A stretch of DNA of 64,000 nucleotides from Paenirhodobacter hankyongi. Its GTDB lineage: Bacteria > Pseudomonadota > Alphaproteobacteria > Rhodobacterales > Rhodobacteraceae. Under the pieces are notes generated by a model. It saw only the letters and a list, made by a program, of their open reading frames with translations, did no database searches and was not told where the DNA came from. This document shows positions 1,347 through 16,275 of the stretch, one piece after another (the first letter of the stretch is position 1; each line of letters starts with the position of its first letter). The translations under genes and the position numbers were made by a program. Location of the stretch: contig NZ_RCHI01000019.1 of the NCBI RefSeq assembly GCF_003664585.1, positions 1 through 64,000 on the forward strand. The letters run 5' to 3'.

Positions 1347-1356
1347 GGAGAACACG

Positions 1357-1650: not shown

Positions 1651-1680
1651 CTGGCGATCAAAACAACCCATGAAGATGCA

Positions 1681-1701
1681 CCCGCCACCGGCGGGTTTTT
1701 T
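1681..1701 (+). terminator. intrinsic terminator closing the tail operon
   Basis: A perfect CCCGCC/GGCGGG stem with a three-base ACC loop is followed by six T. It lies between the tail-fibre-associated gene and the lysis genes, so the lysis cassette probably has its own promoter or depends on antitermination. Confidence 0.75.
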
Positions 1702-1723
1702 GTTGCCGGAAAGGGGCAGGACA

Positions 1724-2410
1724 GTGACGACTGACAAACTCGACCAGATTGCGACGCGGGCCGGATGGGCCACGATCCCGGGGGCGATCTCGTTCCCGGC
1801 GTGGTGGCCGACGCTCGAGAGCGCCTCGACCTTCGCCTCGCAGCTGGTGCCGATCGTGGGCTTGCTGATCGCGGTGGTGAACCTCGCGCTGCTGATCCGC
1901 AAATGGCGCCGAGGCCGGGGCCGGGCCTTCTGCGCCGACGAGAGCGGCGCCGTGGGCCGGCGCACCGTGGCGGGGCTCGGTGCGGTGCTGGCGCTTGCCG
2001 CGGCGGTCATCACTCCTTTCGAGGGGCGCGAGCTACGCGCCTATCGCGACATCGTCGGCGTCTGGACGATCTGCGACGGCGACACGCAGGGCGTGCGGCC
2101 GGGGCAGGTGGCGACGCCGGCCGAATGCGACAGCCGTCTGGCAACCCGGGTGGCGCAGTTCGAGCGCGAGATCCGGCCGTGCCTGCCCGCCGAGCTGCCC
2201 GACCCGACGCGCGCCGCCTTCATCTCGGCCGCCTACAACATCGGCTCCGGCGCGTTCTGTGGCTCGAGCATGGCGCGGCGGGCCCGGGCGGGCGATCTGC
2301 GCGGCGCCTGCGATGCGCTGCGGCTGTGGAACCGGGCCGGCGGGCAGGTGGTGCGCGGCCTCGTGCGCCGGCGGGAGGCGGAGCGCGACCTGTGCCTGAG
2401 CGGGCTGTGA
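1724..2410 (+). CDS. holin-like domain fused to SAR-type GH24 endolysin
   Basis: GTG start with an AAGGGGCAGG ribosome binding site, placed after the terminator; 228 residues. Residues about 38-60 are a strong transmembrane helix (LVPIVGLLIAVVNLALLI) followed by a basic patch RKWRRGRGR, like a small holin. Residues about 76-98 are a second, Gly/Ala-rich weak helix of the signal-anchor-release type. Directly after it comes FEGRELRAYRDIVGVWT, with the lysozyme triad spacing E-x8-D-x5-T of GH24 (T4/P21) muramidases. An in-frame GTG at 1952 could start a separate SAR endolysin inside the longer product. Inferred role: degradation of murein in phage lysis. It overlaps the downstream spanin gene (GTGA). 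Confidence 0.8.
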   Translation: MTTDKLDQIATRAGWATIPGAISFPAWWPTLESASTFASQLVPIVGLLIAVVNLALLIRKWRRGRGRAFCADESGAVGRRTVAGLGAVLALAAAVITPFEGRELRAYRDIVGVWTICDGDTQGVRPGQVATPAECDSRLATRVAQFEREIRPCLPAELPDPTRAAFISAAYNIGSGAFCGSSMARRARAGDLRGACDALRLWNRAGGQVVRGLVRRREAERDLCLSGL

Positions 2411-2763
2411 GCCGGGCAGGGGGTACGCTGGCACTCTGCCTCGCACTTGGTGCCTGCGGCGCGCTGCCCGGTCTGCTGAGTGGCCCGAAGGTCGCCGCGA
2501 ACGGGCAGGCGGCCCGCACCGCGGCGCAGACGCTGGGCACCAGCACGCAGCGCGATCAGGCGATCCGCACCGCCACCGCCGGCCGCGACGTCGTGCAATC
2601 GGCCGACGCCAATGCCGTGCGCGCGGGCCGCGTCGAGCGCGTGGTCGTCGAGGGCAACAGCCCGCCCTGGCTGATCCTCGCCTTTGCTGTTGCGCTGCTG
2701 CTCGACAGCCCATTGCGCTGGCCCGAGCAGATCTGGCGCGCGGTCAGGGGGAGGCGGGCGTGA
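2407..2763 (+). CDS. candidate unimolecular spanin (lipoprotein with C-terminal membrane helix)
   Basis: GTG start overlapping the endolysin stop; 118 residues. The N-terminus is a lipoprotein signal with lipobox LGAC, so the mature protein should begin at a lipidated Cys. A polar middle (AANGQAARTAAQTLGT and on) is followed by a hydrophobic segment PPWLILAFAVALLL and a basic tail ending RAVRGRRA. Lipid anchor at one end and membrane helix at the other is the plan of phage T1 gp11 (u-spanin), which joins outer and inner membranes in the last step of lysis. The call rests on architecture and on position after the endolysin. Two decayed copies of this gene lie further right in the window. Confidence 0.6.
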   Translation: MSRAGGTLALCLALGACGALPGLLSGPKVAANGQAARTAAQTLGTSTQRDQAIRTATAGRDVVQSADANAVRAGRVERVVVEGNSPPWLILAFAVALLLDSPLRWPEQIWRAVRGRRA

Positions 2764-2766
2764 CGG

Positions 2767-3147
2767 TCACGCCGCGACGAGGTGATAGGGGCGCACAAGG
2801 CAATCCGCCGGGATGTGCCACTCGCTGCTCAACTTGTGGATCATGTCGAGGGTGAGTGCACGCTTGCGGTTCAGCACCTCGGACGCGCGCGGGCGAGAGC
2901 CGAACAGGGCCGCCAGATCGGCCTGGGTGCGGCCGGTCGCTTCCATGTGGGCCCGCAGGAAGTCGATCGGCTCCATCGGCTCGATCGGGAAGTTCCGGTC
3001 TTCATAGGCCTCGATCAGATCGGCGAGAACGTCGAAGCGGTCGGCGTCCGGAGTTCCCGGCGTCGGCTGGTTGTCGAAATATCGGGCGATCTCAGCGAGC
3101 GCCCAGTCGTGGTCCGCCTTGGTGCGGATCGGTCGGATGTCCATCAT
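2767..3147 (-). CDS. higA: HigA-type antitoxin (HTH_XRE)
   Basis: A 126-residue protein encoded second in a toxin-first operon; its start overlaps the toxin stop by one base. The C-terminal half is an XRE-type helix-turn-helix (TGRTQADLAALFGSRPRASEVLNRKRALTLDMI) preceded by the HigA-like N-terminal region with EAYEDRNFPIEP. It should bind and neutralise the HigB toxin and repress the operon by binding the two palindromes upstream of higB. Its 3' end abuts the phage spanin gene (stop at 2763), so the module was inserted just behind the lysis cassette. Confidence 0.85.
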   Translation of the reverse strand: MMDIRPIRTKADHDWALAEIARYFDNQPTPGTPDADRFDVLADLIEAYEDRNFPIEPMEPIDFLRAHMEATGRTQADLAALFGSRPRASEVLNRKRALTLDMIHKLSSEWHIPADCLVRPYHLVAA

Positions 3148-3443
3148 CAGATCGTCTCCGGGTTGATCTTGTCATAGTCCTTGTGGGTGCCGACGAACTT
3201 GATCAGCGCCCGGCGAAACGGGTAGGCGAAGTGGACGATCAGGCGATACTTGTTGCCCCCGATATCGAAGATGACGCGGTTGTCGCCAACGAAATCGACC
3301 GTGGTGCCAAACGCGGACTTCACATCGGCCGGGCCCGCCCAGTTCGCTTGAGATGCAATGGTATACCATGCCTTCAGCGGAGCTTCGGCGCGCGGCTCCC
3401 GTTCCCAGAAGGTCCGAAGCGTCGATTTTGCGATGATCTGCAT
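3147..3443 (-). CDS. higB: HigB-type mRNA interferase toxin
   Basis: A 98-residue protein with features of the HigB (RelE-superfamily) toxin family: an early basic helix, the core FGTTVDFVGDNRVIFDIGGNKYRLIVHFAY, then FVGTHKDYDKI. In this family the His-Lys-Asp-Tyr motif near the C-terminus belongs to the ribonuclease site that cuts mRNA on the ribosome. The gene precedes higA, the usual order for Hig systems. A promoter with two flanking palindromic operators lies directly upstream. Expected role: growth arrest when the antitoxin is lost, which stabilises the prophage or blocks other phages. Confidence 0.85.
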   Translation of the reverse strand: MQIIAKSTLRTFWEREPRAEAPLKAWYTIASQANWAGPADVKSAFGTTVDFVGDNRVIFDIGGNKYRLIVHFAYPFRRALIKFVGTHKDYDKINPETI

Positions 3444-3456
3444 CGTGCATCCATTG

Positions 3457-3521
3457 TTCCCGTATCGGGAATATCAGGCCGCCGTGAAGCGAAGTCAATA
3501 GCGGCGTTCCCAATTTGGGAT
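3457..3521 (-). promoter_or_regulatory. higBA promoter with two operator palindromes
   Basis: Read on the minus strand, TTGACT (3493-3498) and TGATAT (3471-3476) are spaced by 16 bases and fit a sigma-70 promoter. Operator O1, TTCCCGTATCGGGAA (3457-3471), is a perfect palindrome touching the -10 element. Operator O2, TTCCCAATTTGGGAT (3507-3521), lies just upstream of the -35. Both share the half-site TTCCC, so HigA or HigBA probably binds both and silences the promoter. Confidence 0.7.
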
Positions 3522-3587
3522 CTTTGTTTGCGGGAGGCCGCGCGATCGGTGCGTCCTGTGGCAGTCATGCAGAGGCGTCGGCGCGCG

Positions 3588-3819
3588 GGCGCCTTGCCTC
3601 GCACGCTCGGCCTGTAGCACTCTGCCCGGTCTGCTGAGCGGCCCGAAGGTTGCCGCGAACGGGCAGGCGGCGCGCACCAAGGCGCAGCCCCTCGGCACAA
3701 GAGAGCGCCAGCCCGCCCTGGCTGATCCTCGCCTTCGCCGTCGCGCTCCTCCTCGACAGCCCCTTGCGCTGGCCCGAGCAGATCTGGCGCGCGGTCCGGG
3801 GGAGGCGGGGAGGTCAATA
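3588..3819 (+). pseudogene. decayed second copy of the phage spanin gene
   Basis: Strong nucleotide similarity to the spanin gene at 2407-2763: CTGCCCGGTCTGCTGAG and the bases around it, and later CCGCCCTGGCTGATCCTCGCC up to the C-terminal CGCGCGGTC. The lipobox region is broken (the Cys codon region reads TGTAGC, giving a stop), and about 110 bp of the middle is deleted. It cannot make a spanin. Its presence on the far side of the HigBA module marks a duplication or serial insertion at this site. Bases between this copy and the next gene (3820-3898) hold nothing else I can name. Confidence 0.75.
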
Positions 3820-3898
3820 GGCATTAGCCATGAAGCCAATCTTCACTTGACGCGCCGTCGAATTGGGTGCGTCGTCCCTTGCCGAAGGGGGGTGACCC

Positions 3899-4183
3899 AT
3901 GAAACATTTGTTCATGATATTGGTCCTTTGTGTTTCTGCTCTTCTCTTTCCGGCTAACGCCCAGTCTGGGCAGCCCTTTCTGCCCCAATCTCTTCAGATT
4001 GAGATCGTCAAGCCGGATGCCGCGATCGATCTGTTAGGCCGGATCCAGAACCAGGAGCCGAAGGAAAAGGTCTTCAATGCAGCCTGCTGCAAAATCTGCC
4101 ACAAGGGCAAAGCCTGCGGGGATAGCTGTATCAGCAGATCATACACTTGCCACAAGGGGCCAGGGTGCGCCTGTGACGGCTGA
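3899..4183 (+). CDS. small secreted cysteine-rich protein
   Basis: A 94-residue protein with a clear Sec signal peptide (positive MKH, a run of L/I/V/F, likely cleavage after PANA at residue 21). The C-terminal 32 residues hold eight cysteines in the pattern CCKICxKGKACGDSC, then SYTCHKGPGCAC, a compact disulfide-rich or metal-binding fold. I recall related KACGDSCI proteins of unknown function in many proteobacteria. It converges on the nuclease gene with only 12 bases between the stop codons. The first half is lower in GC than the neighbours, suggesting recent acquisition. Expected location: periplasm or outside the cell. Confidence 0.7.
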   Translation: MKHLFMILVLCVSALLFPANAQSGQPFLPQSLQIEIVKPDAAIDLLGRIQNQEPKEKVFNAACCKICHKGKACGDSCISRSYTCHKGPGCACDG

Positions 4184-4195
4184 GATGCGCCACTG

Positions 4196-4657
4196 TCAGC
4201 GGCTGCGTCGCCAGTCCCAAGGCATTTCGAACTGACTGGCCCAGATGCCGCGCTTGGCCGATCGTGCCCGGTTCTCTGCGGCAACGTAGTCAAGAGAGTA
4301 ATGGCGATAGGCGACAGCCCAGCCATTCTCAACCATCCAGGCATTGAGGTTGGTTCCACGGGATCTGCAGATCGCCACAACACGTCCATAGCGATCGACG
4401 TCCCGAGGTTGGCAGGAAACAGGTGCTCGGCCGATCTGGTCTGCCAGGGCATTTGCGGCATCTGTTCCGCAGGCCCAGGGTTTTCCCGCGATGTAGCACC
4501 GCTGCCGCCCCTCGGGGCAGTCGATGCCATGCAGCCTAATGCGCTGGCCGTGAATATCGATCGTGTCGCCATCAATCACCGAGGCTGTGCCGCTGATATC
4601 GGCAGCCTGCACCGTGGTTGAAAAAAGGAAGGCGGAAATGAAAGGCAGGAATTTCAT
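4196..4657 (-). CDS. secreted staphylococcal-nuclease-like (thermonuclease) protein
   Basis: A 153-residue protein starting at MKFLPFISAF, a Sec signal peptide with cleavage near VQA/A. The nuclease core follows: VIDGDTIDIHGQRIRLHGID with the metal-binding Asp residues and the phosphate-binding Arg, then DCPE, DRYGRVVA with the second catalytic Arg, and the C-terminal WMVENGWAVAY and AKRGIWAS segments of the SNase fold. It should cleave DNA and RNA with Ca2+ in the periplasm or outside. Internal cysteines (residues 46-65 region) may form disulfides. The frame stays open further upstream, but the signal peptide fixes this start. Confidence 0.88.
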   Translation of the reverse strand: MKFLPFISAFLFSTTVQAADISGTASVIDGDTIDIHGQRIRLHGIDCPEGRQRCYIAGKPWACGTDAANALADQIGRAPVSCQPRDVDRYGRVVAICRSRGTNLNAWMVENGWAVAYRHYSLDYVAAENRARSAKRGIWASQFEMPWDWRRSR

Positions 4658-4728
4658 CGGAAATGGCCTTTGAAATGTTGGTTCTTGCGTTGAGAGCCGG
4701 CCTTCCCCTAGCTGGCCATCACTGAGCA

Positions 4729-5127
4729 TCATGCAGCGCCAACCAGTTCGCGCCGGGCGGCTGAGGCGAGGAAGGACGAACGGGTCATGTGGCGCGCCCG
4801 GGCGGTCTCGTCGATGGCGCGCAGGAGCCCGCGCTCGATCGAGATATTGACCCGGGCGAGAGCGGTGTCCGCCGGGATGTAGGGCACCGGCATCAGCACT
4901 GCGCCGGCGGCGAGTTCCTCGGCCACCTCCGGGCGCTTGCGGATGGTCTCGATCGACGCGGCCTCGACATCGGGTTGATCCTCGAACCAGAGATCGAGCG
5001 CCTCGGCAGTGGCCCGGGGGATATCGTCCCAACTGTCAGCGGCGGCAAAACAGCCGGGAAGATCCGGGAAGGTCAGGCCATAAGCACTGCCCTCGTCGTG
5101 ATGCACGAGCGCGGTATAGTAGCGCAT
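4729..5127 (-). CDS. hicB: HicB-type antitoxin with ribbon-helix-helix domain
   Basis: A 132-residue protein. The N-terminal 60 residues carry the partial RNase H-like HicB fold (YYTALVHHDEGSAYGLTFPDLPGC and LDLWFED). The C-terminal 40 residues (ARVNISIERGLLRAIDETA and following) look like a ribbon-helix-helix DNA-binding domain. It should bind HicA and repress the operon. It is the second gene of the pair, 45 bases after hicA. Confidence 0.88.
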   Translation of the reverse strand: MRYYTALVHHDEGSAYGLTFPDLPGCFAAADSWDDIPRATAEALDLWFEDQPDVEAASIETIRKRPEVAEELAAGAVLMPVPYIPADTALARVNISIERGLLRAIDETARARHMTRSSFLASAARRELVGAA

Positions 5128-5172
5128 CTTGTCCTCCTTGACGTGGATGCGGAGAGGCGATGGTGACGGGGC

Positions 5173-5361
5173 CTAGAGCAGCCCCGCCTGTCGGTAGATG
5201 CTCCTGACGGTGCCAAGCGGCAGGTCCTTCTTCGGGTGGGGCGGGATCACCATCCTGTCGCCCTTCCGGAGCTTGTGGTGATCGCCTTTGACGGAGACCA
5301 CCTCGAACCCTGCGTCTTTCAGAACCTTCAGGAGCTTTCGGGAATTGGTCTCGAACTCCAT
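5173..5361 (-). CDS. hicA: HicA-type mRNA interferase toxin
   Basis: A 62-residue protein starting at MEFETNSRKLL. I chose this ATG over one 36 bases upstream because a near-perfect GAAGGAGG ribosome binding site sits directly before it and the length matches the family. It has the double-stranded-RNA-binding-like HicA fold with the catalytic His in VKGDHHKLRKG and the typical PPHPKKDLPLGTVRSIYRQAGL ending. The product cleaves mRNA and is held in check by HicB. Confidence 0.9.
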   Translation of the reverse strand: MEFETNSRKLLKVLKDAGFEVVSVKGDHHKLRKGDRMVIPPHPKKDLPLGTVRSIYRQAGLL

Positions 5362-5382
5362 CGCCCCTCCTTCGTGGGTATT

Positions 5383-5410
5383 TATATACACACTCATTCC
5401 ATCGCATCAA
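5383..5410 (-). promoter_or_regulatory. hicAB promoter
   Basis: On the minus strand TTGATG (5405-5410) and TATATA (5383-5388) are separated by 16 bases and lie about 20 bases before the hicA ribosome binding site. The -10 sits inside the near-palindrome GTATATAAATAC, a plausible HicB operator. The block is AT-rich compared with its surroundings. Confidence 0.6.
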
Positions 5411-5566
5411 GGAGGGTGTGTAATTAAGTGTGTTTCCCTTGTCGCCGATCCCGGCGGCAGGGGCGGGCTGCGCCAACAGCCCGACCACGCGGTGACGTTT
5501 GCCCCGTTCCGCGCCGACCCGCCCGTGGGTTGATGGTCGCCTGCTCCCCGCGCGGGAGGGTGACAT

Positions 5567-6388
5567 ATGGAACGAATAGCGAACATGAAGCAAGTGAAAC
5601 CCGCGGCTCCGGTCGCCCCCTGGCTGGGCGGCAAGAAACATCTGCACCGCCGGATCATCGAACGGATCGAGGCAATCGACCACAAGACTTACATCGAGCC
5701 CTTCGTCGGGATGGGCGGTGTGTTCCTGCGTCGGCGGTTCCGGCCGCGGCTCGAGGTGGCGAACGACCTGAACGGCGAGATCGTGAACCTGTTCCGGGTG
5801 CTGCAACGGCACCATGCGCAGCTGCTGGAGGCGCTGCACTTCCAGCTGGTGAGCCGGAGCGAGTTCGAGCGCCTGCGCGCCACGCCACCCGAAGCGTTGA
5901 CCGACCTCGAGCGCGCGGCACGGTTCCTCTACCTGCAACGGCTCAGCTTTGGCGGAAAGGTCGCCGGCGTCTTCGGGGTCGATGCCGGGCGCGCGCGGTT
6001 CTCGGTCGAACATCTTGCGGCGGTGCTGGAGGCGGCCTGGCGCCGCCTCGACGGGGTGGTCTTCGAGAATTTGGACTGGGCCGAGCTGGTCCGGCGTTAT
6101 GATCGCCCTGGCGCGCTGTTCTACCTGGACCCGCCGTATTTCGGGGGCGAGAACGACTATGGCAAGGGGATGTTCGACCGCGGTCAGTTCGCCGAAATGG
6201 CCCGGCTGCTTGGCAGCATCGACGGCCCCTTCATCCTGTCCATCAACGACACGCCAGAGATCCGCGAGATCTTCGCCGGGTTCGAGATCGAAGAAGTCGC
6301 GCTGAGCTACTCGATCAGCGCGGCCGGCGCCACGGCTGCACGCGAGCTGCTGATCTCCAATCGGGCCCCGGCCGGGCTGCTGATTTGA
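5567..6388 (+). CDS. orphan DNA adenine methyltransferase (D12 class, Dam-like)
   Basis: A 273-residue protein with a ribosome binding site (GGGAGG) before the ATG. The N-terminus APWLGGKKHL followed by IEPFVGMGGVFLRR is the AdoMet-binding motif I region of D12-class N6-adenine methyltransferases. The catalytic motif IV is DPPYFGGENDYGKGMF at about residues 184-199. No restriction endonuclease is adjacent, so it is an orphan enzyme. On a prophage such enzymes protect phage DNA from host restriction or alter gene expression. The target is not readable from sequence; GATC or GANTC-like sites are only guesses. A hairpin follows the stop. Confidence 0.88.
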   Translation: MERIANMKQVKPAAPVAPWLGGKKHLHRRIIERIEAIDHKTYIEPFVGMGGVFLRRRFRPRLEVANDLNGEIVNLFRVLQRHHAQLLEALHFQLVSRSEFERLRATPPEALTDLERAARFLYLQRLSFGGKVAGVFGVDAGRARFSVEHLAAVLEAAWRRLDGVVFENLDWAELVRRYDRPGALFYLDPPYFGGENDYGKGMFDRGQFAEMARLLGSIDGPFILSINDTPEIREIFAGFEIEEVALSYSISAAGATAARELLISNRAPAGLLI

Positions 6389-6394
6389 CTGTGG

Positions 6395-6418
6395 GCCCGG
6401 CACTGGAATGTGCCGGGC
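6395..6418 (+). terminator. hairpin after the adenine methylase gene
   Basis: A perfect nine-pair stem GCCCGGCAC/GTGCCGGGC with a six-base TGGAAT loop begins seven bases after the methylase stop. No T-run follows, so it may act as a weak or Rho-assisted terminator or as an mRNA-end protector. Confidence 0.4.
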
Positions 6419-6602
6419 GGCGGAGCGGGCGGGCGGATCGGCGGGGGATCTGACCGCCCGTTTGAGCCCCGCTCAGCCCCCGCCGGACGGTCAGGCCCGA
6501 CGCCGGGTTTCGCCGCGCCCGGCCCTGAGCCGACCTTCACCGAGTGAAGTGATGCTGCGGTGCAGCTTCATCAAAGCAGACATTGCCAATTGAGCCTAAT
6601 CG

Positions 6603-7427
6603 TCATCGCCCGCTCCTACTTCGACCATATTTCTGCGCTTGACTGTATTTCTCCAATGTTTCGGGATTTAGCTGAGTGAAATCCTCATCGACCCAAAATT
6701 TCGCAAAACTCTGGGGATTAGTGGTCCGCCTTCCGTAGACAGTCGGGACGCCATTGAATTTCACTCCAACAGCGTGGCCGAAGCCGCGTTGATCAAGCTT
6801 TACAAGTTGTGGATGACCTCCCGTCATGAAGGATTTTGAAGGGATGCCATTGACTAGATCACAGAGGGACCAAAAGCAGGTCCGAGCCACGTCGCCTTGA
6901 TCACCTTTGGCAATCCATTTTTGCCGGTCCTTGTTCGCGCGACCACCTAGGCCCGAACTATAGACATACGCCGACTTTTTGCTGTTCAACTCATTCTCAC
7001 CAATCTGGTTCACGCTCCAACTTGAATTCGCGCGCCCGGCATGATGCAAGCGAAACAGTTGAAAGTCTGAAGGCCCTTCGGCATCGCAGCGCGCGCCGTA
7101 TAGGATTTCAAGCTCACAAATCGGCCCCTTCAGAGGGGTAGCACAAGGCAATTCACAAAATTCTTCAGCCCGGCCTCGGGTCCCGGGCGAAGATTGGATC
7201 ACAGCACGCTGAATTTCTTTCAGGAGCTGCCGCAGGAAAGATTGGCCCCATTGGAGATCCCCTGAGAGGGCAAAAATTTCTGGGGTGCAAACGCTTTCAA
7301 AGACCTTCTTTTCTCGCAAAGACACTGCTTGACCAGTTTGAAGAGATGTCCCTTGGCTATCAGCCCCCAAGTAAAATGTCCTTTTGCCTGTGGCTGACAC
7401 CGAGAGCCATGCTGTGACGGTTGTCAT
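6603..7427 (-). CDS. proteasome/HslV-like Ntn hydrolase, third gene of the SIR2-HerA operon
   Basis: A 274-residue protein. It begins Met-Thr-Thr-Val, so removal of Met would expose an N-terminal Thr as in HslV. LGADSQGTS follows, with D23 at the place of proteasome Asp17, then REKKVF with K40/K41 at the place of Lys33, then EIFALSGDLQWGQSFLRQL, matching the strand-glycine-helix region of beta subunits, and SSGLGG (157-162) at the place of the Gly-Ser-Gly loop. I infer an Ntn-hydrolase fold with possible Thr-protease or amidase activity from this spacing alone. It is too long for plain HslV (about 175 residues), and the C-terminal 90 residues are unrecognised. It lies 39 bases after herA on the same strand with no visible promoter, so it is probably co-transcribed. 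The ribosome binding site is weak. Third-position GC is lower than in the backbone. Confidence 0.55.
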   Translation of the reverse strand: MTTVTAWLSVSATGKRTFYLGADSQGTSLQTGQAVSLREKKVFESVCTPEIFALSGDLQWGQSFLRQLLKEIQRAVIQSSPGTRGRAEEFCELPCATPLKGPICELEILYGARCDAEGPSDFQLFRLHHAGRANSSWSVNQIGENELNSKKSAYVYSSGLGGRANKDRQKWIAKGDQGDVARTCFWSLCDLVNGIPSKSFMTGGHPQLVKLDQRGFGHAVGVKFNGVPTVYGRRTTNPQSFAKFWVDEDFTQLNPETLEKYSQAQKYGRSRSGR

Positions 7428-7466
7428 ACTCGTGCGGCCTACTTTCAGAAGTGGAAGTCCAAGAGG

Positions 7467-9521
7467 CTATGCTTTCCAGTGCAAACTTGGATTCTGGGGG
7501 ACATACCAAAGGTCGCGAACCTGCGTGTCGTCGCTGTTGGGCGTAGGATCGGCATCCCTGACGCGGAAGGTGGTCGGAATCTTCACCGCGCTTCCGAAGA
7601 TCAGCGCGTGCTGCTTCGGTAGAGATGGCAAGCGCCTCAGAACTGTTTCCGAGATGAATGGCGTCATCTGCTTAATCTGCGAAAGATCGTCGGGGTTTTG
7701 GATGCGGTGAATGATGAAGTTGTTACACTGCGAGAGAACCGTCTTCGAGAGCTCGCTTGGCCGTTGTGAAGCCACAATCAAGAAAGCCCCGTATTTCCTG
7801 CCCTCTTTGGCAATCCGCTGGAAGGTTATGCCCGCGTCGATGGCAAAGCGGCTCGGGCGCTCTGAGATGTAGCGGTGCGCCTCTTCGAGGATCAGATGGA
7901 CAGGCATCTTGTTTCGGGGCGTCGCGCGGCGCATCCGGTCGAAGATCAGCCGTGCAACAACGGCAGAGGCTAGTTCGACGATCTCGTCCGACGCATCGTT
8001 TAGGTCGATGATGCAGATTTGACGGTCTTTCCGGTAGCTTGTGCCCTCCCGTGCAAGACCAAGGAGTCGATCAACGAAGTGCGTCGGCTCCCTGTCGTAA
8101 TCCTGCAAGCCTTCAACAGATGCCCGCAAAAACTCGAAATCTGGATTGTCAGAAACAGACTTCAATCGTGTAACCAGTTGCGAACAATATTCCCTTATCT
8201 GCTTGTTTCCGTTTGCTTCTTCATAAAATAGGGCAAGATCGAGTGCTGCTTGCAATCTCCCAAAGGAAAATGGTGTATTTCCGTAACTGGGAAGCACAGG
8301 TTCGTCCGTGACCTGATTTTGCAGGAGTGCCAACACAGCTTCGTAGTTTTCTGATGTGCTAGAATTTCTTCCGTCTTTGAACTGCCCAAAATCATTGTAC
8401 AAACCCGCTTTGATCGTGCCCCTACAAATCTCATCCGTGGAAAACGTATGAAGTAACGCGAGGATTCTCCCCTCTTTGCTTGGCACACTGGCATCATCAT
8501 TTAAAATAGATAGAATGATCTTTGCCAAAACGTGGTTTCGAACACCTTTAAGATCATCACTAGCTCCGTCAACGACATCCGCGACAGGCTCTTCCTGAAA
8601 AAGGGTTGTTAGCCCGAGTGCGGTTCTCAGCGCTGGCAGTTGTGTTTTTTCGCTAGCGCGCAACAACAAAGCCCACTCGTCAACGGTCATGAACCAGTGC
8701 GGCAGACGAAATCTGTCAACCAAATCTGCACCGATGAAACCTTCGTCCAGAACTTCAGCTTCAGCTTCTGAGCTCGTTGCTTTGAAGTAGCTCGCTTGAA
8801 TTTGCCAAGGCATGTCTTCAAATGCTTGTCGATACTCACCGTTGACATCAAATAGGACGAAAGAAGCACCAATTGCCCAAAACTCTTCTGCTCTATCAAA
8901 CACGGACTGAATAATAGAAGCTACAGTGCAAGATTTTCCGCTTCCGGTATTTCCAAGAACAGCGACATGCCCACCGAAAAGTGCGTCAAGCTGCGCCTTC
9001 ACAGGATAGTCCTTGAAAACCGCTGACGTGCCTATCTCGATCGTATGGGGAACCGTTCCCTCCTTTTGAGCCCCCTCAGCGTCGGTCTTTGTCTCACGAT
9101 CTGCTGGTTGCTCCACGTTGAAGATGCGGTCCAGGTCTTCATCACGCGCATAAAGGGCATCTGCATAAAGCGGCGGAAACGTCGAGACCCCAAATTTGAA
9201 AGAGCCTCCTTGGACCGGCATTGAGCCGACGGGAACCACATCGAGGAACTTTGCTGCCGTGGTTTTGTCCATCTCTGCTGCGTTGCCGTAGGCTGGCGAA
9301 AAATCCTTCTCTCGGAGCCCGATAACCTCCAAGACGACATACTCGGATTGGGTCGGCACCATCAGATACGATCCCAAGGTCGCGACGTAATGGACATCAT
9401 CGAAGCCAACGACTGTGAAGTTATCGCTCCCTCTATGCAGTTCGACGACTAGGCGATCCGCTGAAACGCTAACGATCTTGCCTATGGCACGGCTTGCATC
9501 ATCCCTCGCCATTTTCGCCAC
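7467..9521 (-). CDS. HerA-family AAA+ translocase/ATPase of a SIR2-HerA defence system
   Basis: A 684-residue protein from a GTG; an ATG at 9512 is an alternative start. Residues 1-110 form a HAS-barrel-like beta domain (IGKIVSVSADRLVVEL). Walker A is GNTGSGKSCT (190-199). Walker B is near HLILEEAHRYISE (about residue 560), followed by AKEGRKYGAFLIVASQRPSE with a sensor-type polar patch and an Arg-rich end, typical of the HerA/FtsK superfamily. It would form a hexamer that couples ATP hydrolysis to DNA or nucleic-acid sensing. Its start lies inside the SIR2 gene (23 bp overlap), so the two are translationally coupled. In the known SIR2-HerA (Nezha) system the ATPase forms a large complex with the NADase and controls it. 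Confidence 0.92.
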   Translation of the reverse strand: MAKMARDDASRAIGKIVSVSADRLVVELHRGSDNFTVVGFDDVHYVATLGSYLMVPTQSEYVVLEVIGLREKDFSPAYGNAAEMDKTTAAKFLDVVPVGSMPVQGGSFKFGVSTFPPLYADALYARDEDLDRIFNVEQPADRETKTDAEGAQKEGTVPHTIEIGTSAVFKDYPVKAQLDALFGGHVAVLGNTGSGKSCTVASIIQSVFDRAEEFWAIGASFVLFDVNGEYRQAFEDMPWQIQASYFKATSSEAEAEVLDEGFIGADLVDRFRLPHWFMTVDEWALLLRASEKTQLPALRTALGLTTLFQEEPVADVVDGASDDLKGVRNHVLAKIILSILNDDASVPSKEGRILALLHTFSTDEICRGTIKAGLYNDFGQFKDGRNSSTSENYEAVLALLQNQVTDEPVLPSYGNTPFSFGRLQAALDLALFYEEANGNKQIREYCSQLVTRLKSVSDNPDFEFLRASVEGLQDYDREPTHFVDRLLGLAREGTSYRKDRQICIIDLNDASDEIVELASAVVARLIFDRMRRATPRNKMPVHLILEEAHRYISERPSRFAIDAGITFQRIAKEGRKYGAFLIVASQRPSELSKTVLSQCNNFIIHRIQNPDDLSQIKQMTPFISETVLRRLPSLPKQHALIFGSAVKIPTTFRVRDADPTPNSDDTQVRDLWYVPQNPSLHWKA

Positions 9522-10788
9522 CCTGCTGCTTGGAGAGCAGCTTCTTGAAGACCTTTTCGATAGCCTGTTCTTCTTTCTGGTCAGTGCTCGTTGGCATCAA
9601 GTCTTGCACGATACTGTCGAAGTAGTGCGCCTTCTTGCCTGTCGCCTCGTCGCTGCCCCAGATGAAGGAAATCCTCGGGTCTCCTAGCGCTGCGAGTTCT
9701 TTAGTCACCGGATTGTTGGCGTCGTCAGGATTGAGGAAGGCGATCAGGCGGAAGCCCGGGAGGGTTAGTCCCTGAAAAATAATGTTGTTAATGTGCTCGT
9801 CGCCAAAGCTGAATCCCATCACGAAAAGGACACTTTGATCTTGAACGACCTGACGCTGAAACTCACGGAACATGTCCGAATAGGGCGAGCCAAAACTCGC
9901 GGTCTGCTTCGAGGGCGTCGGATAGATCATGACGCGATCCTTGGAAGGATCGGGCTTGTCAGCAGACTCCCGGATCGGGAAAAGACCTGTCTCCTCTTCC
10001 GTCCAGTTTACAGACCCATGGAGCTTGCAGAAATGCACGTATCCATCGACCGCCGCCCACCTTTTTGAGGAAATATCGAGCTGTTCAGCTAGGGCGCGGC
10101 GGTATGTGGAAGGGTTGAAACGGCGCTCAACCGTGCCCGCAAACCCGTTGGAATAGGGAATGCCGGATCGATCCATCGCCCTCTCGTTAAAGAGGTCGTA
10201 ATTTGTGGTGAAAACCCAAGGCGGCGCAAGGCCACGGGATCGGGTGGCCAGCGACTGATAAAAGCGCCGATACAGCGTCACGACTGCTTCGTCGCCGTTT
10301 GCAAAAGGTCCTTCAGTGCATTTCTGAAGGATGAACTTTTTCACGCCTGCGATGACGGCCTCGACGGTTCCGAGGGCACCTTGAAGATCCGCCTTACCGC
10401 TTCTCTTACAAAACTGCTGCGCCGTCATGAGGGCTTCCATCAACCGCTCCAGGTTTTTTCGAAAGTCTTCATGGGTTAGATCGATCCCCAGCTGATCGTT
10501 GAGGGTCATTATTTGTTCAGCTGTCACAAACACGCCGACGCCAGGCAGACCTGGAATTTCTTCAAGCGTTACCTGGAACTCTGCGGCAAGCGGCCCCATC
10601 GTCGGAATGCCAAGATCATTGCCTTCGTGCATGTAGGATGAGCAACCGGAGCCGATGAGAAAAGACAGGTTCTTGGAACCGAAGGCCTCTGCCAGATGCC
10701 GCCGGATAATTTCAGCGCGGTCATCATACCCTGCTTCAGGGGAGAGTTTTGCAAACTCGTCTCTGTTCCCTTTTCTAAAATTGATCAA
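9499..10788 (-). CDS. SIR2-family NADase effector of a SIR2-HerA defence system
   Basis: A 429-residue protein, first gene of the operon. The only sensible start is a TTG with GGAG seven bases upstream. The SIR2 fold is shown by FLIGSGCSS (glycine loop, 43-51), FTTNYD (193-198, catalytic Asn196) and KLHGSVNW (255-262, catalytic His257), then VLFVMGFSFGDEHINNII, the usual closing segment of defence SIR2 domains. In this family activation by infection leads to NAD+ hydrolysis and abortive infection. Residues 70-190 are a helical insertion of unknown role. The gene is lower in GC than the chromosome and sits in prophage cargo, so it probably protects the lysogen from competing phages. Confidence 0.92.
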   Translation of the reverse strand: MINFRKGNRDEFAKLSPEAGYDDRAEIIRRHLAEAFGSKNLSFLIGSGCSSYMHEGNDLGIPTMGPLAAEFQVTLEEIPGLPGVGVFVTAEQIMTLNDQLGIDLTHEDFRKNLERLMEALMTAQQFCKRSGKADLQGALGTVEAVIAGVKKFILQKCTEGPFANGDEAVVTLYRRFYQSLATRSRGLAPPWVFTTNYDLFNERAMDRSGIPYSNGFAGTVERRFNPSTYRRALAEQLDISSKRWAAVDGYVHFCKLHGSVNWTEEETGLFPIRESADKPDPSKDRVMIYPTPSKQTASFGSPYSDMFREFQRQVVQDQSVLFVMGFSFGDEHINNIIFQGLTLPGFRLIAFLNPDDANNPVTKELAALGDPRISFIWGSDEATGKKAHYFDSIVQDLMPTSTDQKEEQAIEKVFKKLLSKQQGGENGEG

Positions 10789-10904
10789 GCAACCACTCCA
10801 AGTAAATTTCGTCCTTGCTGTCTCGCCACACGGTAGCCCAGGAACTCAAATGTTGTAAGTCCGGTTTCGGCGGTTATTCCTCAATCATAGGTAGATGCAG
10901 CGAA

Positions 10905-10987
10905 TGGCCGCTCCCCGCCCTGGGCTGCCGGCGGGGCCTCACACCTCGACCGGCCGCTCTCCGCCCTTGGCCACCGGTGGGGCCTCA
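10905..10987. repeat. 37-bp imperfect direct repeat at the SRAP gene end
   Basis: Copy A (10905-10941) and copy B (10951-10987) share GGCCGCTC.CCGCCC and CGG.GGGGCCTCA with a few changes; the period is 46 bases. Copy B ends on the SRAP stop codon. Each copy contains an internal dyad (GGCCCCACC/GGTGGCC-like), so this may be a duplicated 3' terminator region. Confidence 0.6.
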
Positions 10988-11611
10988 GTCGCCGATCGCC
11001 TCAATCAGCTCAGGCCCGTCATCGCGCATCGAGAAAGGTCTGACAGGGTGGTGTTCGAGTCTGGCGTCGTCGCCAAGGCCTGCGCCATCGGAGCCGCCAA
11101 GCCAGGCTCCGCGCTCGTCGGCGTTCAAGATCACCGGCATCCGTTCGTGCAGACCCGCCATTGCATCGGTTGCAGCGCGGGTCATGATCGTGCAGGTCAA
11201 CAGGTCGTGCCAGCGACTTGCCAGCCCTGCAAGAAACAGGTTCTCCTCATTCCCGGCCGAACGGAAGAAGTGTGGCTGGCGGCGCCCCTTCGGTCCCGTC
11301 CATTCGTAAAACCCGCCCACCGGGATCAGGCAGCGCCCGTGGCGCCAGACCTGCCGGAAGGTCGGCTTCGTAGGCGCATCCTCGACCCGCGCGTTGAAGG
11401 TAGCCGCCTTCCAGTCCTTCGGGGCGTCACCGGAAAACCAGGATGGGATCAAGCCCCAGCGTGCCGTGAATGCCGTCAGCGGGTGCTTTGCAAGGATCAC
11501 AACTTCGTCCGTCGGCTTGACGTTGTAGCGCCGGGGGAACGGGGCGATCTTGATCTGCGACATCTCGACCTCAGTGTTCCGAAGGTTCGGATCGATGAAA
11601 CGCCCGCACAT
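10985..11611 (-). CDS. SRAP (HMCES/YedK) abasic-site DNA-protein crosslink protein
   Basis: A 208-residue protein. The start is set at MCGRF because SRAP proteins use Cys2, exposed after Met removal, to bond covalently to abasic sites in single-stranded DNA; a GGGGGAG ribosome binding site precedes it. Other family marks: RYNVKPTDEV, RWGLIPSWF, FNARVED (active-site Asn-Ala-Arg-x-Glu), CLIPVGGFYEW, and HERMPVIL with the catalytic His. It shields abasic sites in single-stranded DNA and is often plasmid- or phage-borne. Here it is the last cargo gene before the prophage edge, upstream of the SIR2 operon on the same strand and separated by about 200 bases. Confidence 0.92.
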   Translation of the reverse strand: MCGRFIDPNLRNTEVEMSQIKIAPFPRRYNVKPTDEVVILAKHPLTAFTARWGLIPSWFSGDAPKDWKAATFNARVEDAPTKPTFRQVWRHGRCLIPVGGFYEWTGPKGRRQPHFFRSAGNEENLFLAGLASRWHDLLTCTIMTRAATDAMAGLHERMPVILNADERGAWLGGSDGAGLGDDARLEHHPVRPFSMRDDGPELIEAIGD

Positions 11612-11685
11612 TTCAATGCTCCCCCTCTTCGTAATCAGCCGCAGGGCAGGCGGTGTGCATCGCGGCGCATGCATTGGACATTAGC

Positions 11686-11868
11686 ACACAGCGATCAGGC
11701 GGTCCGCACCGCCAGCACTGGCCGCGACGTCATGCAGCCGGCAGATGCCAGCGCCGTGCGCGCTGGCCGCGTCGGGCGTGTGGTCGCCGAGGGCAACCGA
11801 CCGCCCTGGCTGATCCTCCTCGACACCCCATTTCGCTGGCTCGTGCAGATTTAGCGCGCGGTCAGAGG
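11686..11868 (+). pseudogene. decayed third copy of the phage spanin gene
   Basis: Similar to the middle and end of the spanin gene (from the codons for QRDQAIRT to the C-terminal RAV): CACAGCGATCAGGCGGTCCG, GGCCGCGACGTCATGCAG and CGCCCTGGCTGATCCTC match closely. The membrane-helix codons carry a deletion of about 24 bp and the frame ends early at TAG (11852-11854). The 5' half is absent. It sits at the far right edge of the cargo, so intact and decayed spanin copies bracket the whole accessory block. Confidence 0.75.
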
Positions 11869-11871
11869 AAA

Positions 11872-12018
11872 GAGTGGGGAAGGGTGGTGAGCCCCTAATC
11901 GGCGCTCAGGGTGACCGTTAGAACATGCTCTTCGTGGCTTTACATGTTCATCAGTTGTTCGATTTTTGTTCCGTAAAACTAATGGTCTTTTATGTTGATT
12001 TATAAAGATTTTCTTTGA
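11872..12018. other. AT-rich prophage end, probable att arm region
   Basis: This 147-base stretch is much richer in A/T than either side and holds no gene. It contains an inverted repeat GAACATG (11921-11927)/CATGTTC (11943-11949) and a direct repeat TTGTTC (11955-11960 and 11966-11971) one helical turn apart. Such repeats are typical of integrase or excisionase arm sites; that role is an inference from position next to a tRNA half. Confidence 0.45.
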
Positions 12019-12058
12019 AACCTAAATCTGGTGCGTCTACCAGTTTCGCCACACCCGC
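12019..12058 (-). tRNA. 5' half of tRNA-Leu(UAG), truncated after the anticodon loop (attachment-site scar)
   Basis: On the minus strand GCGGGTG (acceptor) leads through a D-arm containing ACTGGTAGACGC to the anticodon arm CCAGA-TTTAGGT with anticodon TAG. Sequence identity then stops: the 3' anticodon strand should read TCTGG but reads TTCAA, and the variable, T and acceptor 3' arms are missing. The break lies at the junction between prophage-like DNA (left) and chromosomal genes (right), so I read it as the att core. A working tRNA-Leu(UAG) must exist elsewhere, perhaps rebuilt at the other end of the prophage. Confidence 0.65.
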
Positions 12059-12200
12059 ACGTGCCGCCTTCTAGCAACGCCCCCGTGGCCTGAACAGGGG
12101 GCGTGCGAAAAAATCCTCGCCCGATGAGGGAATTCGTTCTAATCTCGAAACAAAGCCGAAAACGGCGCGCCTTCAAGGCACAACGAGCAGGACAGACCCG

Positions 12201-12722
12201 ATGGATAGGCCCCCCTCGGGACGGGAGACGCAGGGTGCGGATGCACCCGGCACCCGTTCCGCATCCGTTGTCGACCCGTATCTTCACTCCGGCGCCGCCC
12301 TGGCCGGCATCGCGCTCGGCACCCGGGTGGCGACGCTCGACGGGCTCTTGCCGGTCGAGTTCCTGAGCCCGGGCGATCGGGTCATCACCCGCTCCGGCAT
12401 GTGCCGGCTGCGCGCCGCGACGGCGATGCCGGCGCGGGACGGGCTGGTGCAGATCTCTCCCGGCGCGCTCGGCCATGACCGGCCCGAACGCGCGCTGTTG
12501 CTGGGTGAGGGCACGCAGGTGCTGATCCGCGACTGGCGGGCCGAGGCGCTCTTCGGCCGCAAGGAGGCGCTGATCGAGGTCTCGCGGCTGATCGACGGGC
12601 AGTTCATCGCCCGTGTGGGCGCCGAGACGGTGCGCCTCTTCACCCTGCATTTCGACACGACCGAGGTGATCTATGCCGACGGCGTCGAGATCGGCTGCGC
12701 GCCGCTCGCCGCCGAGGTCTAG
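12201..12722 (+). CDS. Hint (hedgehog/intein-type) domain protein
   Basis: A 173-residue protein. After a disordered N-terminus, residues about 35-165 show the Hint pattern common in Rhodobacterales: GIALGTRVATLDGLLPVEFLSPGDRV, ALGHDRPERALLL, then VRLFTLHFDTTEVIYADGVE. The autoprocessing Cys expected at the start of a true intein domain is not evident (GIALGTRV instead), so self-splicing is unlikely. The function is unknown. It is the first chromosomal gene beyond the prophage edge and converges on nnrD, the two stop codons sharing a CTAG. Confidence 0.7.
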   Translation: MDRPPSGRETQGADAPGTRSASVVDPYLHSGAALAGIALGTRVATLDGLLPVEFLSPGDRVITRSGMCRLRAATAMPARDGLVQISPGALGHDRPERALLLGEGTQVLIRDWRAEALFGRKEALIEVSRLIDGQFIARVGAETVRLFTLHFDTTEVIYADGVEIGCAPLAAEV

Positions 12723-13573
12723 AGCAGGATCGCGCGGAACACCTTCGGCAGCTCGTCGGGCAGGTCCTCGGCGATCAGGCCGGGGCCGAAGCTGCGTGCC
12801 GCCTCGACATGCAGCCAGGTGCCGGTGCAGGCCGCCTCGTAGGCAGAGAACCCGCGCGCGAGCAGGCCGGTGAGGATGCCGGCCAGCACATCGCCCGAGC
12901 CCGCCGTGGCGAGCCATGGCGCGGCGCGCGCGCCGGTGGCCAGATGCAGCGCCGCCTCGCCGCCGGGCGCGGCGATCGCGGTCTCGGCGCCTTTCAGCAG
13001 CACCGTGCAGCCGGCCCGGTCGGCGGCCGCCCGCGTCGCCTCGACACGGGTCAGCACGCCGTCGGCAAGCGCCGTCGCAAGGTCGGGGAAGAGCCGGCCG
13101 AATTCGCCCAGATGCGGGGTCAGCACCACGTTCTCATGCAGCTGCGCGAAGAGCTGGCCGGGGTCGGCGGCAAAGGCACTGAGCGCATCGGCGTCGAGCA
13201 CGGTCGCCCGTTTCGCCCAGAGTGCGGCGGGCACCATTTCCTGCGCGCGCGGCAGGCCGAGGCCGGGGCCGAGCAGGAGCGCGTTCAGCCGCCGGTCCTG
13301 CAGCTTGCCGCGCAGGCTGTAGCCATCGGGAAGGGCGGCCAGCATCACCGCGGTGAGCTGGGCGGCGTTCTCCGGAATCGCGGCCTGCGGCGGCAGCAGC
13401 GTGACAAGCCCCGCGCCGACCCGCAGCGCGGCGCGCGCGGCCAGCCGCGCCGCCCCGCCGTGGCCGACGCCGCCCGCCAGCACCAGCGCATGGCCATGGC
13501 CGTATTTATGCGCCTCGACGGTCTTGCGCAGCGCGGCGCGCATCTCTTCGGTCAGGGTGATGTGGCGGATCAT
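12719..13573 (-). CDS. nnrD: ADP/ATP-dependent NAD(P)H-hydrate dehydratase
   Basis: A 284-residue YjeF C-terminal-domain (ribokinase-like) protein. It carries GHALVLAGGVGHGGAARLAARAAL, LDADAL, NVVLTPHLGEFGRLFP and the nucleotide/active-site motif ATAGSGDVLAGILTGLLA. It converts hydrated, damaged NADHX/NADPHX back to NAD(P)H with a nucleoside di- or triphosphate. It is the second gene of a two-gene unit with the epimerase upstream. In E. coli both activities are fused in one protein; here they are separate, in different frames, with a 61-base gap. Confidence 0.9.
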   Translation of the reverse strand: MIRHITLTEEMRAALRKTVEAHKYGHGHALVLAGGVGHGGAARLAARAALRVGAGLVTLLPPQAAIPENAAQLTAVMLAALPDGYSLRGKLQDRRLNALLLGPGLGLPRAQEMVPAALWAKRATVLDADALSAFAADPGQLFAQLHENVVLTPHLGEFGRLFPDLATALADGVLTRVEATRAAADRAGCTVLLKGAETAIAAPGGEAALHLATGARAAPWLATAGSGDVLAGILTGLLARGFSAYEAACTGTWLHVEAARSFGPGLIAEDLPDELPKVFRAILL

Positions 13574-13634
13574 GCCAAGGCTCCGGCGGTGGGATCGGCG
13601 CAGGGTAAGGCGGCGAGGGTGAGGAAAGGGTGAA

Positions 13635-14297
13635 TCACAGTCCGATATCCGCGGTCACGACGGCAAGCCCCGCGGCGCGCAGGGGCGGGTGCACGGGCTT
13701 CTCGCGGTGGAAGGTGACGACCAGATCGCAGGCGGGGATGACCGGCGGAGGGGTGTCGGCGGCGAGGCCGGAGGGGATGTCGATCGCGACACGCCGCCAG
13801 CCTTCGGGATGCGCGGCGACGATCTGCCCGGCGATGGCCAGCATCTGCGCCGCGGCGGCGGGCAGGGGCGGGCGAAAGCCGATGCCATAGAGCGCGTCGA
13901 TCACCACCCCGGCGCGGCAGCCCGTCCAGTCCTCCGCCGCAAGCGCCTCTGACGGCAGGGCGCGGGCGCCGGGCTGGGCGCTCCAGGCCTCGGCAGTCGC
14001 GCGCGCATCGGGCGGCAGCCGCTCGGGCCTGCCCAGAAGATAGGTCGCGACCCGCCAGCCGCGGTCGGCAAGCAGCCGCGCCACCACAAATCCGTCACCG
14101 CCATTGTTGCCCGGTCCGCACAGCACCACCGCGCAGGGCGGCTCGGCCGGGGTCGCAAGCGCCGGCCAGGTCTCGAGGATCGCCGCCACCACGCCCGTGC
14201 CCGCCCGCTCCATCAGCGCAAGGCCGCTGACCGTTCCGGCGGCCATCGCGGCCTGTTCGATGGCGCGCATTTGGGCAGATGTCAGAATTTCTGCCAT
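13635..14297 (-). CDS. nnrE: NAD(P)H-hydrate epimerase
   Basis: A 220-residue YjeF N-terminal-domain protein. The start at MAEILTSAQMRAIEQAAM fits the family. Marks: LMERAG, CGPGNNGGDGFVVARLL (nucleotide-binding loop), VIDALYGIGFRPPL and AIDIPSGLAADT with the catalytic Asp region. It interconverts R- and S-NADHX so that NnrD can repair both. It is transcribed away from glnB, which starts 173 bases to the right on the other strand. Confidence 0.92.
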   Translation of the reverse strand: MAEILTSAQMRAIEQAAMAAGTVSGLALMERAGTGVVAAILETWPALATPAEPPCAVVLCGPGNNGGDGFVVARLLADRGWRVATYLLGRPERLPPDARATAEAWSAQPGARALPSEALAAEDWTGCRAGVVIDALYGIGFRPPLPAAAAQMLAIAGQIVAAHPEGWRRVAIDIPSGLAADTPPPVIPACDLVVTFHREKPVHPPLRAAGLAVVTADIGL

Positions 14298-14332
14298 AAT
14301 CCCCTCGAAGTCTTTTCTTTTCGCCGCTATAA

Positions 14333-14809
<477 letters not shown>

Positions 14810-14865
14810 AGAATTCAGGGCCGGTGGCCCGGATACCCAATGCTCAAAGGAAAGGGTTATTTGCA

Positions 14866-16275
14866 ATGAGCGCAGTCAAGAAAGCTCTCGAACTGATGAA
14901 GGCGGAGGAAGTCGAATACGTCGACGTCCGCTTCACCGACCCGCGCGGCAAGCTGCAGCACGTGACGGTGGTGGCCGATCTCGTCGATGAGGACTTCTTC
15001 GAGGAAGGCTTCATGTTCGACGGCTCGTCGATCGCCGGCTGGAAGTCGATCGATCAGTCCGACATGAAACTGATCCCGGACGCCTCGTCGGTCTACATCG
15101 ACCCCTTCTATGCGGAAAAGACCCTCTGCGTGCATTGCGACGTGGTCGAGCCGGACACCGGCGAAGCCTATGACCGCTGCCCGCGTCAGGTCGCCCACAA
15201 GGCCGAGGCCTATCTCAAGTCCTCGGGCATCGGCGACGCGGCCTTCTTCGGCCCTGAGGCCGAATTCTTCATCTTCGACGACGTGCGCTACTCGGTCACG
15301 CCCTCGAAGGTCGGCTACGAGATCGACGCCGAGGCCGCTGCCTGGAACACCGATGCCCTCATCGAGACCGGCAACCTCGCGCACCGCGCCGGCCACAAGG
15401 GCGGCTACTTCCCGGTGAACCCGGTCGACGAAGCCCAGGACCTGCGTGGCGAGATGCTCTCGACCATGAAGCGCATGGGCATGAAGGTCGACAAGCACCA
15501 CCACGAAGTCGCGACCTGCCAGCACGAGCTGGGCATGATCTTCGGTGGTCTGGTCGAGCAGGCCGACAACATCCAGAAGTACAAGTACGTGATCCACAAC
15601 GTGGCCCACGCCTACGGCAAGACCGTGACCTTCATGCCGAAGCCCATGAAGGGCGACAACGGCTCGGGCATGCACGTGAACATGTCGATCTGGAAGGACG
15701 GCAAGCCGCTCTTCGCCGGCGACAAGTATGCCGACCTGTCGCAGGAAGCGCTGTACTTCATCGGCGGCATCCTGAAGCACGCGAAGACGCTCAACGCCTT
15801 CACCAACCCGTCGACGAACTCGTACAAGCGTCTGATCCCGGGCTTCGAAGCCCCGGTGCTGCGCGCCTATTCGGCCCGCAACCGCTCGGGCTGCGTCCGT
15901 ATTCCGTGGACCGAATCGCCGAAGGCCAAGCGCGTCGAAGCCCGGTTCCCCGATCCGGCGGCCAACCCCTATCTCGCCTTCGCGGCGCTGATGATGGCCG
16001 GCCTCGACGGCATCAAGAACAAGATCGATCCGGGCCCGGCGTCGGACAAGGACCTCTACGACCTGCCGCCGGAAGAGCTGGCCGCGATCCCGACCGTCTG
16101 CGGCTCGCTGCGTGAAGCTCTGGAAGCGCTGGAAGCCGATCACGACTTCCTGCTCGCCGGCGACGTGTTCACCAAGGGCCTGATCGAGGGCTACACCGCG
16201 CTCAAGTGGGAAGAAGTCTACGCCTACGAGCACACCCCGCACCCGATCGAGTACCAGATGTACTACTCCTGCTGA
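14866..16275 (+). CDS. glnA: glutamine synthetase type I
   Basis: A 469-residue protein; ATG at 14866 is chosen for [20 protein letters not shown]. It carries the full GSI signature set: [11 protein letters not shown], the metal ligands in [38 protein letters not shown] (ATP and ammonia site) and NRSGCVRIP. The adenylylation Tyr is in DLYDLPPEE near the C-terminus, so activity is controlled by GlnE. It makes glutamine from glutamate, ammonia and ATP. It is the second gene of the glnBA operon and ends at a strong terminator. Confidence 0.98.

Follow-up and report, generated by a model that had tools for sequence, protein, structure and literature searches.

What is a third gene doing directly behind the two genes of a SIR2-HerA (Nezha) defence pair, and does it belong to that system? 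The question is raised by contig NZ_RCHI01000019.1 of Paenirhodobacter hankyongi (assembly GCF_003664585.1), of which positions 1 to 64,000 were analyzed (hereafter the window), and in which a SIR2-family NADase gene and a HerA-type ATPase gene are followed by a gene for a putative proteasome-like N-terminal nucleophile (Ntn) hydrolase. The third gene is carried together with SIR2-HerA as one mobile cassette and is selected at the protein level, under purifying selection. The explanation favored here, held with moderate confidence, is that the locus represents a mobile SIR2-HerA variant of three genes, in which an accessory, proteasome-like add-on protease acts with HerA.

All three genes are intact and co-directional on the minus strand, where the initial annotation had placed them, and its layout of a 23-bp overlap, a third gene 39 bases further on the same strand, and the motifs FTTNYD and KLHGSVNW was found as described. 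The SIR2-family NADase gene (9499..10788, minus strand) has a TTG start and encodes 429 amino acids (PADLOC PDLC04084, 3.8e-175; Pfam SIR2_2, 1.5e-13), with FTTNYD at 10212-10195 and KLHGSVNW at 10026-10003 on the minus strand; FTTNYD and KLHGS are taken here to be the Asn and His motifs of the NADase. The HerA/FtsK-family ATPase gene (7467..9521, minus strand) has a GTG start, encodes 684 amino acids (PADLOC PDLC04102, 1.7e-285; Pfam DUF87, 1.3e-17), carries the Walker A motif GNTGSGKS at 8954-8931 (minus strand), and has 23 bp in common with the SIR2 gene. By PADLOC models and motifs, the two are identified as a SIR2-HerA (Nezha) pair. The NCBIfam equivalogs NF042942, NF042943, and NF042944 gave 135 of 500, 225 of 800, and 191 of 850 bits, and because these scores lie below the anti-phage SIR2/HerA cut-offs, the pair is regarded as a divergent subtype. 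A gap of 39 bp (7428..7466, minus strand) separates HerA from the third gene (6603..7427, minus strand; ATG start, 274 amino acids). The earlier claim that no promoter lies in this gap agrees with a consensus scan for promoters and terminators, which detected none but barely discriminates, finding about as many sites in shuffled DNA.

The association of the three genes can be judged from the near copies of the third gene, which are 93% (Paracoccus versutus plasmid pBEN), 85% (an Oceanibium contig end), 74% (G025), 72% (a Roseovarius metagenome-assembled genome), and 70% (Ruegeria) identical to that of the window. All five near copies with enough flank, namely, the window, L010 (pBEN), L012, L003, and L004, show the order SIR2-HerA-third gene; L003 and L004 were found by the third-gene search, while L010 and L012 were found by both the third-gene and the SIR2 searches. 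L002 sits at a contig end, matches HerA over its final bases alone, and carries a stop within its third gene; it was left out of these linkage counts and kept among the 17 family members and the 13 family matches of the pattern control given below. By blastn, the cassette covers 6518..10908 of the window at 90% DNA identity with pBEN, and DNA similarity extends over 6536-10788 in L012, 6644-10788 in L003, and 6619-10789 in L004; in all four other carriers, it stops no more than about 130 bp from the ends of the three-gene unit. Because the similarity ends so close to the three genes, the unit moves as one cassette; its genes have a G+C content of 52-54% vs. 66-69% around them, and the flanks differ, the cassette lying between type IV secretion genes in L003 and after an IS66-like transposase in L004 (names assigned by eye). 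The description of the three genes as one unit was thus upheld by the shared order and the sharp edges.

The ratio of non-synonymous to synonymous substitution rates (dN/dS) of the third gene is 0.16-0.25 in diverged pairs and 0.56, on few changes, in the close pair formed by the window and L010. Constraint is tighter in SIR2 (0.04-0.09) and HerA (0.06-0.10), for which only unsaturated pairs were used. A spurious third open reading frame (ORF) is ruled out by dN/dS and by the cassette edges. A single internal stop was seen in HerA of L012 and in the third gene of L002, which may be decay or sequencing error.

Scans of Pfam, PADLOC, NCBIfam, and PHROGs with the third protein gave nothing at E ≤ 0.1 (the best Pfam hit, PF04034, has E 0.2, below the cut-off), and the nature of the protein was approached through an alignment of 16 sequences, comprising the window protein and 15 relatives that are 17-93% identical to it. 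In all 16, M1, S24, K41, G56, Q207, and G232 are invariant, while T2, W7, D23, G159, R182, G203, and P206 are nearly so; the residue after the start Met is T in 15 sequences and S in one, and D or E occupies the D23 position. In the window, this alignment places T2 at 7424-7422, D23 within ADSQ at 7364-7353, K41 within EKKV at 7313-7302, G56 within SGD at 7265-7257, and a TGG motif within 6827-6807, all on the minus strand. The order and near spacing of T2-D23-K41-G56 are those of the proteasome residues T1-D17-K33-G47, the roles of which are described in the available part of Fuchs, Alva and Lupas (2021, PMC8665760). The earlier proposal that the third product keeps proteasome/HslV-like positions therefore stands, these four residues being invariant or nearly invariant across the alignment.

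Two spacing patterns, both written after the family had been seen, match 15 (loose) and 16 (strict) of the 16 family rows. Applied to 556 control ORFs (≥180 amino acids), the loose pattern has 14 matches, i.e., 13 family rows and the host's Anbu; these ORFs were chosen by a crude longest-first criterion, which misses real genes (four of five Anbu genes were absent), and some of the loci overlap. Shuffled family sequences gave 0.04 loose matches per 16, and Anbu proteins tested separately matched the loose pattern in five of five cases and the strict pattern in none (one was read from the start of its similarity). The third gene is not the host's own HslV or Anbu, the genes for which sit on other contigs. 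In the 11 remote relatives, GSG or GTG is present in nine, and a D three residues before the S/T at the GG site is present in 10; these may correspond to S129, D166, and S169, accessory residues of the proteasome group.

Several results weigh against a proteasome-like identity. The five near sequences have GLG and S-F-M-T-GG, and thus neither the D166-like Asp nor the Ser of GSG. Searches of PDB sequences with the third protein and with its profile returned no proteasome match. The family profile aligned in register with HslV at E 0.029, and its score of 21.2 exceeded those of all 40 shuffles (maximum 19.6), but an unrelated HerA profile scored 21.5, equaling that raw score, and the alignment with Anbu was out of register. 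Other versions of the profile were weak against HslV (E 0.009 and 0.066), with L064, too divergent, left out of one comparison profile, and one relative touches the PHROG HslV family at E 0.039. The profile test has little power, because HslV and Anbu, known relatives, reach only E 0.17 against each other. AlphaFold2 models built on four-sequence alignments were poor, with a mean predicted local distance difference test score (pLDDT) of 35 when the window protein was modeled and of 44 for its relative L020, and a Foldseek search of the L020 model against PDB gave nothing significant. Within that search, 20S subunits were seven of the 50 PDB matches listed and had the highest template modeling scores (0.22-0.26; best E 0.16, not significant), while the search against BFVD gave nothing significant and no 20S hint. 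The low-confidence L020 model runs strand-strand-strand-helix-helix-strand-strand-strand-helices-strands, presumably the element order of proteasomes.

Taken with the conserved positions, an Ntn hydrolase remains very likely, though not proven, and the protein is predicted to be probably an active proteasome-like hydrolase. A scaffold or sensor that has a proteasome-like fold but no catalytic activity would fit the loss of the D166-like Asp and of the Ser of GSG in the window subclade, but the near copies, and nearly all remote relatives, retain T2, D23, K41, and G56, and this alternative is judged improbable. An Ntn hydrolase acting on a small molecule or amide, e.g., an NAD (nicotinamide adenine dinucleotide) breakdown product, would differ in being no protease: the Ntn fold is described as serving several unrelated hydrolases (PMC8665760), and the SIR2 partner of such systems is described as yielding ADP-ribose and nicotinamide (PMC11559045). 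The residue set and spacing nevertheless fit the proteasome group including Anbu (the only group compared), and relatives of the third gene occur without a window-type SIR2, which leaves the small-molecule hydrolase as a most improbable option.

The third gene is not a fixed part of SIR2-HerA; on this point, the reading in the initial annotation was not borne out. The SIR2 search returned four more close pairs, L055, L056, L057, and the viral contig L051, with SIR2 86-89% identical to that of the window (81-96% in the other four carriers), and the third gene is absent from all of them, i.e., from four of nine close SIR2-HerA pairs. In these non-carriers, the similarity breaks off at the HerA stop codon or shortly beyond it (7472, 7465, 7443, and 7429), and L055 lacks the third gene even though its HerA is 96% identical to that of the window. 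By SIR2 searches alone, the gene is present in three of seven close pairs (with it, the window, L012, and L010; without it, L055, L056, L057, and L051), a count that omits a SIR2 remnant (G344, L059) and matches of ≤53% identity; in L059, the SIR2 match covers 65 residues only. Of the 347 plasmid records that match SIR2, only one (L010) also has a near copy of the third gene. An obligate component is ruled out by the four clean absences, and because close pairs do without the gene, the NAD-depleting core probably does not require its product.

The third gene is rare and sporadic. A relative was found in six of 390 genomes of the order-level sample (the window's own, G025, and four remote), in at least one of 385 at the class level (the window's own), and, among 398 genomes of the phylum, in at least six by profile A1 and at least seven by profile A3, own genome included; at most six candidates per genome were scored in these profile searches, and the counts are therefore lower bounds. 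The window gene is recovered at 1.1e-26 by profile A3, in which the window's own clade is not represented. Phage records gave no relative for either of the two queries tried, and viral contigs gave one remote relative, further searches returning none or that contig again.

The remote relatives (L011, L013-L016, L020, L062-L064, L071, and L072; about 17-27% identity) have no window-type SIR2 or HerA nearby (11-21 kb each; best tblastn E 0.09), which, like the four absences, speaks against a fixed tie to the pair. The initial annotation had named a gene found mostly without SIR2-HerA as the outcome that would count against it. Here, the result is divided: near orthologs of ≥70% identity stand behind SIR2-HerA in five of five cases with available flank, the window included, while 11 of the 17 family members are remote and without it (the 17 leave out a second Arcobacter plasmid, H70, and the partial sequences L073 of Pseudomonas aeruginosa and L078 of G969). 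In the Arcobacter plasmid L072 (5677-7774), the relative lies 31 bp after a HEPN/Toprim gene (PF18871, 3.7e-51), and in the Pseudomonas plasmid pXWY (L071, 5408-7834), it lies 33 bp after an orphan gene of 519 amino acids; these are possibly other effector and Ntn pairs. Between the two plasmids, the genes before the Ntn gene are dissimilar, as are the genes after it. DUF3800 genes are found beside or within about 2 kb of three relatives (L014, L015, and L020), in Pfam scans of neighboring genes that left out L062.

This distribution suggests that the family is a movable module, carried behind SIR2-HerA by one lineage. It also bears on the proposal that the third gene is an independent anti-phage or toxin gene hitch-hiking behind SIR2-HerA, in the same cassette with a separate function, as could be expected from remote relatives that stand alone or beside other genes (DUF3800, HEPN/Toprim, and integrase) and from the clean absence of the gene in four close cassettes. 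The near copies with flank, in contrast, hold both the SIR2-HerA partner and the gene order on different replicons, and independence is considered quite unlikely.

In an alignment of HerA from nine loci, the middle region (8247..8909, minus strand; about residues 205-425) is variable: in one 50-column block, identity to the window drops as low as 26%, against 78-100% in the blocks on either side of the region. Three types occur, A (window, L003, and L055), B (L010, L012, and L004), and a shorter C (L051, L056, and L057), and the third gene accompanies type A or B in five of six loci and type C in none of three (Fisher p 0.048, kinship not removed). The SIR2 tree pairs the window with L010 (100/100), whereas the HerA tree, which carries a long-branch warning and supports the A/B group at 86/94, pairs it with L055 (97/94); two changes in the presence of the third gene are needed on the HerA tree and three on the SIR2 tree. 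Because the two trees conflict, the cassette probably recombines internally. The match between the third gene and the type of middle region, in these nine loci, is the only hint of contact between the third protein and HerA. Judged by its position, from a report on HerA-DUF4297 (PMC12198126) together with general background, the middle region should be a helix bundle facing away from the effector-binding HAS domain.

These observations are also compatible with a regulator or safety catch, i.e., a protease that trims or destroys SIR2, HerA, or a phage inhibitor of them and thereby sets the NADase threshold, and that is required only by certain hosts or alongside certain HerA alleles. The optional gene tracks the HerA middle-region type rather than the SIR2 clade; it is also the last gene of the operon, after the 39-bp gap, and the relative behind the HEPN/Toprim gene is as expected of a controller common to different toxic effectors. 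Control by the third protein is not obligatory, however, as close systems live without its gene, and the regulator is considered unlikely, though the least unlikely of the alternatives.

Under the favored explanation of an accessory add-on protease, NAD would be depleted, as known systems do it, by a core of a SIR2 12-mer and a HerA hexamer, and removal of Met1 would expose Thr2, so that the third protein would be active as a protease or amidase, probably in oligomeric form. It would most likely work together with or at the HerA hexamer, either as an additional effector that degrades protein of the phage or the host or by widening what the system responds to, while being dispensable for core activity. 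A more specific and rather doubtful version makes HerA a two-faced hub, with SIR2 on the HAS-barrel side, as in known complexes, and a proteasome-like ring on the opposite side, at the helix bundle, which would be the variable part of HerA. If true, NADase and protease would be united in one immune machine, and a proteasome relative would be fed or gated by a motor of the HerA/FtsK type instead of an AAA+ unfoldase.

In the available parts of two reports, SIR2-HerA is described as a system of two genes, the products of which form a 12+6 complex that depletes NAD and requires HerA (PMC11559045; PMC12198126). The locus resembles it in the SIR2/HerA overlap, the matched PADLOC models, the SIR2 and Walker A motifs, and the mobile DNA, and differs in the third co-directional gene. 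DUF4297-HerA and HerA-nuclease systems likewise join a HerA hexamer to a toxic enzyme in the published descriptions consulted (PMC12198126), whereas the effector here is SIR2 and a third gene is added. The open-access literature, at the level of titles and abstracts and among the matches listed (most subscription journals lie outside it), held no SIR2-HerA with such a third gene, in line with the earlier statement that no SIR2-HerA with an Ntn partner had been described. In the portions available, one paper reports HerA variants with KTSC-domain and nuclease genes and names no protease partner (PMC9503650), and another includes Sir2-HerA in its list and assigns a CHAT protease to other systems (PMC10952713). 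Against this literature, the three-gene SIR2-HerA variant is new, and it suggests that some SIR2-HerA defences carry an optional protein-cutting part.

The third protein shares the N-terminal Thr and the D17-, K33-, and G47-like residues at matching spacing with HslV, Anbu, BPH, and the 22 novel proteasome homologs of Fuchs, Alva and Lupas (2021, PMC8665760), and its family may equal one of those 22 subfamilies. Like them, it is rare and sporadic, and small proteobacterial families (DPH and RPC) occur there too. In the available text of that study, the novel families are catalogued with no informative genomic context, hence no functional clue from it, and no AAA+ partner; here, the near copies keep a non-AAA+ ATPase partner. 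The subfamily behind SIR2-HerA supplies a partner and, with it, a testable role in immunity for one putative proteasome homolog.

A sister group of SIR2-HerA pairs (Haematobacter, Novosphingobium, Niveispirillum, and G377; 45-55% identity) also has a third gene, which overlaps HerA and encodes an RNase_T-type DEDDh exonuclease rather than an Ntn hydrolase. It overlaps the HerA stop by 4-17 bp in four of six sister pairs with intact flank (L066, L068, and L069, after HerA, at about 11.27-12.18 kb, and L058, 9634-10530) and is absent from L065 and L067; the count omits L052 and L070, where HerA is incomplete, and the Pfam scans were confined to L058 and L068. SIR2-HerA appears to accept optional third genes, a proteasome-like hydrolase here and a DEDDh exonuclease in the sister clade, and modular add-ons to HerA defences become directly testable.

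The window copy lies in what appears to be a prophage end at the contig start (1-11900). The region includes a tail fiber (342-1346), an endolysin (1634-2410), HigB and its antitoxin (3443-2767), an SNase-domain ORF (5032-4196), a HicB-like antitoxin (5127-4729), a Dam-type methylase (5567-6388), and SRAP (11674-10985). Prophage cargo, as had been proposed, is plausible for this copy, with the tail fiber, endolysin, and Dam nearby, but does not extend to L010, which is on a plasmid, or to L003, among type IV secretion genes. Rfam gave no match in positions 1-16000 of the window, and the tRNA scan gave one tRNA, at 33447, with none near the three-gene unit. In the viral contig L051, which carries the two-gene SIR2-HerA, the methylase region is 72% like that of the window.

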